Shown: piece by piece, positions 11,524 to 14,166 of the stretch | Position numbering within the stretch: the stretch's first letter is position 1 | Layout of the letters: every line of letters starts with the position of its first letter | DNA from: Sulfobacillus sp. | GTDB lineage: Bacteria > Bacillota > Sulfobacillia > Sulfobacillales > Sulfobacillaceae | Length of the DNA stretch: 64,000 nucleotides | Reading direction: 5' to 3' | NCBI GenBank assembly: GCA_027309085.1 | Contig: DAIDDL010000012.1 | Location: 1 to 64,000, forward strand | The notes under the pieces: generated by a model | Seen by the model: only the letters and a program-made list of their open reading frames with translations | Databases searched by the model: none | Told to the model about the DNA's origin: nothing | Program-made: the position numbers and the translations under genes

Positions 11524-12426
11524 TCAGCTGGCCCGAGGCCACGTCGCCTGGGGCACCAGTTGATCCACCAGAGCCCTCAGCTCTTCAAAAGCCCGCGGGT
11601 CACCGGGCGTCGCCAGCGGCAGACGCACGTCGCCTGCATGAAATCCCAGATAATTCATGGCCCATTTCACACTGATCGGATTGGTGTGGCGGAAGAGTTC
11701 TTGAAAGAGTGGCATAAGGGTCGCATTGATCCGCCGTCCCTCTTGCAGATTGCCCTGATTCACGGCCTGGGTCATCCCCTCAATCGCCGGTCCCACCAAG
11801 TGGGAGGCGACACTGACGACACCGTGAGCTCCCAAAGTCAACGCCGTGAAATACATGGCATCATCTCCCGCATAGACGTAGGTTGCCGGAGACACCAGGT
11901 TGATCAGTTCCTGCATTTGGGGGAGGGATCCTGCCGCTTCTTTGATCGCGACGACATTGGGGCACTCCTGAATAATCGTGCGGGCCGTGGCGGGAAGCAA
12001 GTTTACCCCCGTGCGTCCGGGAATATTGTAGAGCATGGCCGGCACTGGCAAGCCTGACGAGATTTCCACAAAATGCCGGATTAATCCTTCCTGAGGGGGT
12101 TTATTGTAATAGGGGCACACCAGAAGCACTCCGTCCGCTCCACCTTCCGCGGCCTGCCATGAAAGCTCACGGCTGTGCCGCGTATTATTCGTGCCGGTGC
12201 CCATCCATAGCGGCACGCTGCAGCCAACTCCATCGCGAACGGCGCGCAGCAGATCCATGCGCTCCCGGTCAGTGAGCGCCGGGGACTCCCCGGTCGTGCC
12301 GGAAAGAATTATACCGCCGCTGCCGTGGGCCACAAGCCAAGCAGCCATCGTAGCCGCTTCTTCATAATCAATTTCTCCGGCAGTGTTAAAGGGGGTAATC
12401 ATCGCAGTGAATATACGGGGTAACAT
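11524..12426 (-). CDS. dapA: 4-hydroxy-tetrahydrodipicolinate synthase
   Basis: Condenses pyruvate with aspartate semialdehyde, the first committed step of DAP/lysine synthesis. The Schiff-base lysine is in VVAIKEAAGSL, the catalytic Tyr in MLYNIPGRTGVNL, and the GTTGESPALT loop near residue 43 binds the substrate. The start is the ATG at 12426 with AAGGAGG 8 nt upstream, giving 300 residues; the frame extends 14 codons further without support. A promoter and a short leader ORF lie upstream. DAP is also needed for the peptidoglycan of spore formers. Confidence 0.95.
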   Translation of the reverse strand: MLPRIFTAMITPFNTAGEIDYEEAATMAAWLVAHGSGGIILSGTTGESPALTDRERMDLLRAVRDGVGCSVPLWMGTGTNNTRHSRELSWQAAEGGADGVLLVCPYYNKPPQEGLIRHFVEISSGLPVPAMLYNIPGRTGVNLLPATARTIIQECPNVVAIKEAAGSLPQMQELINLVSPATYVYAGDDAMYFTALTLGAHGVVSVASHLVGPAIEGMTQAVNQGNLQEGRRINATLMPLFQELFRHTNPISVKWAMNYLGFHAGDVRLPLATPGDPRAFEELRALVDQLVPQATWPRAS

Positions 12427-12489
12427 AAATTTAGCCTCCTTGGAGTAGTGGATAGATTGCCTAGACACGGACGCCGGACCGCGCGAAAT

Positions 12490-12600
12490 TTACGCACGAA
12501 CCGGCCAGGTCTTAACGCCCGGCTTCTTCCACGACTTCTCAGAGACAGCGGCTACACACGAAAATGCGGAAAATTCCCATGACTGTAAAGATCCGGTCAT
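12490..12600 (-). CDS. Short ORF (36 codons) in the dapA leader, possible leader peptide
   Basis: Lies between the dapA promoter and dapA on the same transcript. The ATG at 12600 has an excellent Shine-Dalgarno site (AAGGGAGGAG, 7 nt away). Its C-terminal half contains EKSWKKPGVKTW, four lysines within nine residues, an arrangement reminiscent of amino-acid leader peptides used in attenuation. The reading frame ends 63 bases before dapA. GC-rich complementary segments follow the lysine codons, but I cannot show a terminator/antiterminator pair. It might also be a chance ORF. Confidence 0.4.
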   Translation of the reverse strand: MTGSLQSWEFSAFSCVAAVSEKSWKKPGVKTWPVRA

Positions 12601-12636
12601 GACAATTCTCCTCCCTTCGCAGTGCGCTTTTGTTGC

Positions 12637-12665
12637 ACTATACCACGTTGCCATTCTCGCGTCAA
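12637..12665 (-). promoter_or_regulatory. Promoter of the dapA transcript
   Basis: TTGACG and TATAGT on the minus strand are separated by exactly 17 bases. The predicted start lies about 30 bases before the leader ORF and about 200 before dapA, leaving a long leader. Confidence 0.7.
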
Positions 12666-12987
12666 ATAATCATTCACTCGCCTGCATAGTGCACTGAACA
12701 TAGGGCGGCCTGTGGGCAGGGACGGTCAACTGGCCAGGGAAATGGAGAACATTTGCGGTTTGGCCCCGCTTATGGCATAAAATGATTGGCGAGGGCACAA
12801 TGGCCGCACTCTTGGCTCGACGGACGGACAGATGTGCGGCAGCATACCCTTTCCCTCGTGAAGGGGACTTCATGTCCTGAGACTGTTCCGGGCAGCACAG
12901 GCACTTCGCTCAGCGCCTTTGTTCAGGAGACAAGGTGACCGTCCTGGACACAGGGCGGACGGTTTAGAAAGGCAGGGGAATTCTTAT
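12666..12987. other. Divergent region between the dapA promoter and the aminotransferase gene
   Basis: About 320 bases with no convincing gene. It contains a short dyad TGCATAGTGCA at 12683-12693, a weak plus-strand promoter candidate (TTGCGG at 12753, 17-base gap, CATAAA at 12776), and then roughly 200 bases of leader before the aminotransferase start. I recognise no known riboswitch in that leader; in particular the lysine-riboswitch conserved blocks are absent. Confidence 0.5.
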
Positions 12988-14166
12988 ATGCAATGGGCGT
13001 CTCGGATGGAAAAGATTCCTCCATATCTCTTTTTGGAGCTGGACAACATCATCGCGCAAGAACGGGCTCAGGGCCGCGATATTATCAGTCTGGGCATCGG
13101 CGATCCCGACCGCCCTACGATTCCCGTCGCGGTCGAGGCCCTAAAGCATGCGGTGGACAACCCCGCGACTCACCGCTATCCCAATTATCTGGGCAGCTTG
13201 GAGTTCCGGCAAGCTGTTGCCAATTGGTATGAGCGGCGGTTCCATGTCAGCCTGGACCCCATCCACGAAGTTGTGGGCCTGATCGGGTCTAAAGAAGGGA
13301 TTGCCCACCTGATTTGGGCAATGGCTGAACCGGGTGACATCGTGCTATTGCCCGACCCCGCCTACCCGGTTTATTATACCCAGACGATATTAGCAGGCGC
13401 TGAGCCCTATGCGATGCCCCTGACCGCGGAACACGGCTTTCTTCCGGACCTGCGCGCAATTCCCGACGCGGTCTGGGCACGGGCCAAAATGCTTTGGCTC
13501 AACTATCCCAACAATCCCACCGGCGCGGTGGCTTCCCGCGAATTCTACCAGGAAGCCGTTGACCTGTGCGGACAGCATGACGTATTGCTGTGCAGCGACG
13601 GCGCCTACTTGGAAATGGGCTTTGACGGGTATCTGGCTCCTTCCGTGCTGGAGATCCCCGGGGCAAAAGAGACAGCCATTGAGTTTTATTCCCTGTCAAA
13701 ACCCTTCAACATGACGGGCTGGCGCATTGCTGCAGCCGTGGGCAACGCCTCCGCGGTCCAAGCATTAGGCACCCTGAAGAGCAATCTGGACTCTGGTCCA
13801 TTCACGGCCGTGCAAGATGCCGCTGTCGCGGCGTTGCAGTCAGGCCCCGCCCCGTTCTTCACGGCGATGAACGCCCTGTACCAAGAACGGCGCAATATCG
13901 CCGTGCGCGCCCTGACCTCCATGGGCATTCCCCTTCAGGCTCCGGAGGCCACTTTTTACCTCTGGTTCCAGGCGCCTTTTGGCATGACATCGGCCGAAGC
14001 CACGACGTACTTTATCCGCGAGGCCGGAGTCCTTTTGACCCCGGGAGAAGCTTACGGAACCCATGGCCAAGGGTGGATGCGCATCTCTCTGACCATTGAT
14101 ACGGCCCGGCTGCAAGAGGGCCTGGAAAGGATGGCGGCAGCCATTCAGAAGCGTCCCCCAGTCTAA
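12988..14166 (+). CDS. Class I/II aminotransferase, DapL-like (LL-diaminopimelate aminotransferase candidate)
   Basis: PLP-dependent fold-type I aminotransferase of 393 residues. The substrate-binding N-terminal part contains GIGDPDRPT, NYPNNPTG lies near residue 172, and the PLP lysine is Lys238 in YSLSKPFNMTGWRIA. Those motifs and their spacing match the aminotransferase group that includes Firmicute DapL/PatA-like enzymes. The position divergent from dapA supports a role converting tetrahydrodipicolinate to LL-DAP, but related enzymes act on other substrates. The ATG at 12988 has AGGGGAA about 8 nt upstream. No dapB, lysA or dapF is in the window. Confidence 0.75.
   Translation: MQWASRMEKIPPYLFLELDNIIAQERAQGRDIISLGIGDPDRPTIPVAVEALKHAVDNPATHRYPNYLGSLEFRQAVANWYERRFHVSLDPIHEVVGLIGSKEGIAHLIWAMAEPGDIVLLPDPAYPVYYTQTILAGAEPYAMPLTAEHGFLPDLRAIPDAVWARAKMLWLNYPNNPTGAVASREFYQEAVDLCGQHDVLLCSDGAYLEMGFDGYLAPSVLEIPGAKETAIEFYSLSKPFNMTGWRIAAAVGNASAVQALGTLKSNLDSGPFTAVQDAAVAALQSGPAPFFTAMNALYQERRNIAVRALTSMGIPLQAPEATFYLWFQAPFGMTSAEATTYFIREAGVLLTPGEAYGTHGQGWMRISLTIDTARLQEGLERMAAAIQKRPPV

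Follow-up and report, generated by a model that had tools for sequence, protein, structure and literature searches.

In a stretch of 64,000 nucleotides (nt) of Sulfobacillus sp. DNA (contig DAIDDL010000012.1 of assembly GCA_027309085.1; hereafter the window), taken from a genome of 4,493,897 bases, the dapA gene for 4-hydroxy-tetrahydrodipicolinate synthase is preceded by a short open reading frame (ORF) which, in all likelihood, encodes a translated lysine leader peptide. The presence of the ORF in relatives, its lysine codons and their fixed spacing from a hairpin make such a peptide very likely. The architecture is there to be read in the DNA; from it we infer that the ORF is translated, that ribosomes would stall on it and that dapA would respond to lysine. 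The probable mechanism is ribosome-mediated translational attenuation of dapA by lysine, acting on initiation in the manner set out below.

All elements of the leader are on the minus strand. dapA, the presumed regulated gene, occupies positions 11524..12426 with its ATG at 12426, and its product scores above the NCBIfam dapA cut-off (276.4 versus 206.15 bits). A reading made earlier from the sequence only had placed a good promoter about 200 bases upstream of dapA and, in between, a 36-codon ORF with a strong Shine-Dalgarno sequence; both were found. The promoter, sigma-70-like and of the TTGACG-17-TGnTATAGT type, lies at 12665..12637, the end of its -10 box being ~210 nt upstream of dapA. 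One such motif was present against 0.1 expected from the shuffled leader (0.4 by shuffles for a 700-base-pair region), and in the genus alignment it recurs in 7/8 genomes, the contig of G007 beginning inside it. The ORF (36 codons and TAA, 12600..12490) encodes MTGSLQSWEFSAFSCVAAVSEKSWKKPGVKTWPVRA; AGGGAGGAG precedes its ATG, with the Shine-Dalgarno sequence at 12608..12616. Its stop codon is 63 nt from dapA, so that the two do not overlap. Four Lys codons, all AAG, are found at codons 22 (12537..12535), 25 (12528..12526), 26 (12525..12523) and 30 (12513..12511), in agreement with the clustering of lysines already seen in the sequence-only reading.

That reading had left its lysine leader peptide refutable by a lack of conservation in relatives, a condition that did not arise. 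The ORF was found directly before dapA in all eight genomes of the genus (g1), and the core described below in 26 of 27 genomes of the family. The peptide was detected in each of the 7 other genus genomes, with expectation values (E) from 1.8e-12 to 0.005; these peptides are 36 to 42 codons long and a purine-rich Shine-Dalgarno sequence stands before their ATG. The gaps of the alignment inside the ORF measure 9, 6 and 3 nt, as expected of a translated frame. Within the last 17 codons, 3, 3 and 5 of the 17 first, second and third positions vary among the eight genomes, versus 123, 65 and 276 of 299 for dapA in the same genomes. The difference at third positions (5/17 versus 276/299, Fisher p 2e-9) suggests that the tail of the ORF, being held at the nucleotide level, is constrained as RNA too. 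Several residues of the tail nevertheless vary within the genus (Glu/Val/Ala/Lys, Ser/Leu, Lys/Asn, Thr/Ala, Trp/Gly and Val/Ala).

When 154 genomes of the class were searched with R1, a covariance model derived from the leaders of the genus, 8 genomes other than those of the genus gave a match at E<=1: four matches, all in the same family, adjoin the 5' end of dapA, and the other four have no dapA in the locus. A further R1 match, on the other strand of the same place in the window (12430..12550, plus strand, E 1e-6), is as expected from long paired arms. Inspection of the dapA leaders of the family revealed a common core, made of an in-frame AAG, one codon, UAG (or UGG, GGG), CCGG, a hairpin and CCGGC, in which the Lys AAG is exactly 8 nt before the GCCGG...CCGGC hairpin. 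In the window the core (AAG-N3-TGG-CCGG, 12513..12501) takes in Lys codon 30 as well as the foot of a hairpin, P2 (12505..12473), inside which the ORF ends, stop codon included. In most genera the core UAG is itself the stop, and the peptide ends with Lys-Ile, Lys-Met, Lys-Leu or Lys-Arg. In g1, g2 and g5 (the genus loci, L138 and L142), UGG or GGG replaces the stop UAG and the ORF continues to end inside the hairpin. A single origin of the TGG form was considered and rejected, as the dapA tree, which is poorly resolved, requires at least two changes.

A dapA match is present in 33 of the 34 family genomes. The core precedes the best one in 26 of the 27 genomes where it is at least 47% identical, and 11/11 genera are represented; this count excludes the leaders of G028 and G033 (best dapA matches 33 to 35% identical) and of G032 (no match at E 1e-40). 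The exception is G015 (L139, genus g9), whose promoter region looks alike and whose genus mate G023 has the core, found there by the pattern alone. Elsewhere in the family, the core was found in none of 12 other dapA-like leaders examined, be it the best dapA matches at 42 to 46% identity (0/4 examined) or the second copies (0/8 examined, out of 23 further dapA-like copies), and it precedes 0/13 dapA-like loci in the order's 8 other genomes. The narrower pattern and the wide genus pattern agree on the family and order counts, and the UAG/UGG pattern is expected by chance 0.44 times per 64 kilobases (kb). One second dapA-like gene without the core, 48% identical, is in G000 (contig C102, 22964..23788, leader in L190).

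A second model, R2, made from 21 family cores, finds 25 family genomes at E<=1.8e-5, 21 of them by construction, and all at dapA places. It misses G023 at E 0.05, so that its silence elsewhere is no proof of absence. Beyond the family, the R2 matches that were opened (L185 to L189, E 0.001 to 0.006; weaker ones were left unopened) and the R1 matches L123 and L125 show no dapA by eye. At L185 (G082, from another family; E 0.001, a weak match), a frame ending in Asn-Lys-Ile-stop directly before a CCGG hairpin lies, perhaps by chance, upstream of a gene judged by eye to be helix-turn-helix-like.

When the core Lys is set aside and genera are weighted, 13.6 of 88 residues (15.5%) are lysines in the 8 positions before the core, versus 4.3 of 272 (1.6%) earlier in the peptides. 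With one genome per genus, 14 of the 19 lysines fall in these 8 positions (permutation p 5e-5; Fisher p 4e-6), values which overstate the surprise since the genera share descent. The second Lys is at -3 or -4 in most leaders and at -1 in G031, and G023 lacks it; this floating position suggests that what is kept is a codon rather than a fixed base. The N-terminal parts of the peptides do not align between genera; outside the genus the start codons were chosen manually, and those of G009, G017 and G025 have no Shine-Dalgarno sequence at the usual distance. The 26 leaders use 75 AAG and 4 AAA as Lys codons, versus 22 AAG and 38 AAA in five genes of the window. Pairing needs or a particular tRNA could be the cause of this near-exclusive use of AAG.

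No intrinsic terminator was found between the leader ORF and dapA, and no Rfam family matches the leader. The lysine riboswitch (L-box, RF00168) has no match at the leader and, with strict filters, none in the 34 family genomes; the same filters detect it in 8 other genomes of the class among 61 searched. T-boxes, which also control lysine genes in Firmicutes, were sought with RF00230: none is in the window or on the dapA contig, although they occur in the genus, with 13 in the source genome. The sequence-only reading had proposed folding the leader RNA. In single folds the tail of the ORF pairs with the dapA Shine-Dalgarno sequence in 8/8 genus members. The predicted helix, P1, joins YCUCU..GAAGU.GUGGA (5' arm, 12547..12528) and UCCAC.ACUUU..GGAGG (3' arm, 12452..12433, including the Shine-Dalgarno sequence AAGGAGG at 12441..12435). 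Between its arms are P2 and a small hairpin within the ORF, P1a (CCnGG-CGUUAAGA-CCnGG, 12521..12506), of which three of the four pairs are invariant and the fourth is broken in 2/8 sequences. The pairs of P1 and P2 form in 96.5% of the 256 cells scored for the genus, a share that falls to 40 to 53% when one arm is displaced. At the foot of P2, the same five pairs occur in 21 of 21 rows.

The lack of a terminator, together with a Shine-Dalgarno sequence engaged in a helix, makes translation of dapA the most likely output. Taken with the 63-nt gap, it suggests that the lysine-codon stretch sequesters the Shine-Dalgarno sequence, and argues against transcription attenuation or stop-start coupling. 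The switch could work as follows. When lysyl-tRNA is ample, the ribosome would reach the stop codon at P2 and depart; P1 would then form and dapA initiation would be low. When lysyl-tRNA is scarce, the ribosome would pause on an AAG codon and mask the 5' arm of P1, leaving the dapA Shine-Dalgarno sequence free and allowing more dapA product to be made. Given usual ribosome footprints, the 5' arm of P1 would be hidden under a ribosome waiting at codon 22, 25 or 26 and exposed with one at the stop codon. P2 may have the role of slowing the ribosome at the sensing codon. The attenuation proposed in the sequence-only reading is thereby kept as regards the lysine leader peptide, which is well supported, and altered as regards the mechanism, there being neither a terminator nor an overlap of the ORF with dapA.

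Among 25 single-folded leaders, the dapA Shine-Dalgarno sequence has a partner in the ORF with a weight above 0.9 in 16. Beyond the genus the stretches involved differ: in g4, CCUCUUUAG is opposite CUAAGGAGG, and GACAACAAGGAGG faces an unrelated, longer stretch in g7 and g10. Folded jointly, g2 and g5 show two compensatory pairs at the Shine-Dalgarno pairing, which is missing from the single fold of G011. With shuffled tails as reference, the combined p of a duplex test was 0.012. We take sequestration of the Shine-Dalgarno sequence as likely in g1, g4, g7 and g10. When the leaders were folded with a masking ribosome (25 leaders, G023 being left out), the best Lys position freed the Shine-Dalgarno sequence by more than 0.05 in 6/10 genera, and the stop position in 2/10.

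Several observations weigh against attenuation at the dapA Shine-Dalgarno sequence. Its pairing is unsupported in several genera: the weight of a partner in the ORF is 0 to 0.01 in 5/25 leaders and 0.3 to 0.7 in 4/25. The duplex test falls to p 0.12 when the tails of other genera serve as reference; singly, only g4 and g10 are below 0.05, and g1 is at p 0.35 with a 24-nt target too short to include its whole P1 3' arm. The mean freedom of the Shine-Dalgarno sequence is 0.11 unmasked, 0.18 with a ribosome at Lys and 0.13 at the stop codon (p 0.11), and a ribosome at Lys frees none in G001, G004 and G008. Covariation is no higher than in shuffled alignments, 110/500 of which reach the observed value in the genus and 105/500 in a second test; covariation was discarded as proof of structure, variation being too small. 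Lastly, most leaders have only two or three Lys codons near their end, and G023 has one. On balance, covariation and ribosome-masked folding give weak support to the attenuation model.

The conserved hairpin invites a broader, more speculative proposal, which we put forward tentatively: throughout the family, a lysine sensor read by the ribosome would replace the lysine riboswitch, and the invariant-foot hairpin 8 nt past the Lys codon would act as a brake on the side where the mRNA enters the ribosome. Decoding of this one codon would then be slow and report lysyl-tRNA charging, and the waiting ribosome would keep the dapA Shine-Dalgarno sequence open. To our knowledge, such a hairpin brake would go beyond known leader-peptide attenuators.

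The same invariance would also suit a riboswitch or a protein-binding RNA overlapping the ORF, where a ligand (lysine or diaminopimelate, DAP) or a protein is bound by the conserved tail and the P2 foot, with ORF translation of secondary importance. The 21 identical rows of foot pairs and a tail kept at the nucleotide level (5/17 third positions varying), in which several changes alter the amino acid, are in line with this. A Lys that floats before the core and lysines that avoid the N-terminal part are better explained by codons, however, and outside the core little sequence is shared beyond the genus and there is no Rfam match; we regard this explanation as rather unlikely. Another candidate is the nascent peptide itself, TnaC and SpeFL being examples of peptides that arrest their ribosome: here an end of the type Lys-x2-3-Lys-Ile-stop would halt it in response to lysine or another metabolite. 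The last Lys, two codons before a stop abutting P2 in most genera, fits, but in g1, g2 and g5 the stop is further on while the spacing from AAG to the hairpin stays, and tail residues are variable even within the genus; we regard such an arrest as improbable.

That the lysine codons control transcription, for instance by Rho, rather than dapA initiation, would accommodate the 99 to 206 nt that separate the leader stop from dapA in several genera, as well as those genera in which the Shine-Dalgarno pairing is unsupported. With no intrinsic terminator at the dapA leader (Rho sites were not searched for) and a predicted pairing that involves the Shine-Dalgarno sequence in all eight genus members, we give it little credence. 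As for an ORF and a hairpin present by chance and retained by descent, with no regulatory role, the N-terminal parts that cannot be aligned between genera are what one would expect; a core in 26/27 genomes across 11 genera, the lysine clustering, the AAG bias and the chance rate of the pattern (0.44 per 64 kb) make this very improbable.

Other features of the region were also inspected. The gene divergent from dapA (12988..14166, plus strand), noted as context only, is LL-diaminopimelate aminotransferase-like; in the long leader before it, a purine-rich GAAGGGGA (12861..12880, plus strand) precedes ATG-TCC-TGA, which may be a two-codon ORF. The end of the leader peptide looked to us like that of a ribosomally synthesized and post-translationally modified peptide (RiPP), a reading that was rejected: an asparagine-synthase-like gene nearby passes the asparagine synthase model (509.4 versus 267.1 bits) and fails the lasso cyclase model (246.1 versus 525), and the peptide has no match in Pfam or NCBIfam. 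A weak match to the peptide elsewhere in the source genome (E 0.32), with no dapA among the ORFs there, was taken as due to chance.

Among known systems, the erm-type translational attenuators also have a ribosome stalled on a leader which opens an inhibitory stem over the start of the next gene; there, stalling is caused by an antibiotic and not by lack of charged tRNA. The nearest system is the LEU element found upstream of leuA in Actinobacteria (PMC1262725), in which the leader ORF likewise carries a run of regulatory codons, a base stem pairs this run with the Shine-Dalgarno sequence of the regulated gene, and no terminator is needed. At dapA, codons for the amino acid of the pathway are indeed near the ORF end, and their stretch is predicted to pair with the Shine-Dalgarno sequence in 8/8 genus members and in g4, g7 and g10, the pairing being unsupported in several other genera. 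The two differ by the amino acid and gene (lysine and dapA instead of leucine and leuA) and by the invariant GCCGG/CCGGC-foot hairpin 8 nt past the Lys codon of the dapA leader; a pseudoknot is described for the LEU element (PMC1262725), and no pseudoknot search was made for the dapA leader. No shared descent is implied. The candidate cys leader peptides of Mycobacterium and others likewise have regulatory codons near the stop and no conserved terminator; they concern cysteine, no conserved hairpin able to act as a terminator is reported for them, and Shine-Dalgarno pairing is not mentioned in the available part of that source (PMC1262725), which also states that no conserved RNA structures were seen for the lysine operons of Actinobacteria.

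Lysine genes of Firmicutes, often in dapA operons, are controlled by the lysine riboswitch, which acts on the same pathway but binds lysine directly; the accessible portion of a review on it does not mention Sulfobacillus (PMC5584792). The closest literature match to a lysine leader peptide or attenuator is SEP5 of Sinorhizobium. This short ORF, located in the 5' untranslated region of an aspartate-family gene, carries Lys codons close to its end; it has been proposed to be a leader peptide and is described as conserved only in Sinorhizobium (PMC10117765). No lysine leader-peptide attenuator was found in the open-licence literature, as far as its texts were available. The sequence-only reading had held that translation-coupled attenuation of DAP synthesis would be unusual in Firmicutes; leader-peptide attenuation as such is not foreign to them, a leucine-rich attenuator peptide being reported for Staphylococcus aureus (PMC5794164).

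If the leader functions as proposed, lysine would be added to the list of amino acids that ribosomes sense through a leader peptide, and the 26 natural variants would lend themselves to the study of the codon, hairpin and Shine-Dalgarno spacing needed for the switch. It would also suggest how Sulfobacillus and its family may regulate the first step towards lysine and DAP without using a riboswitch.
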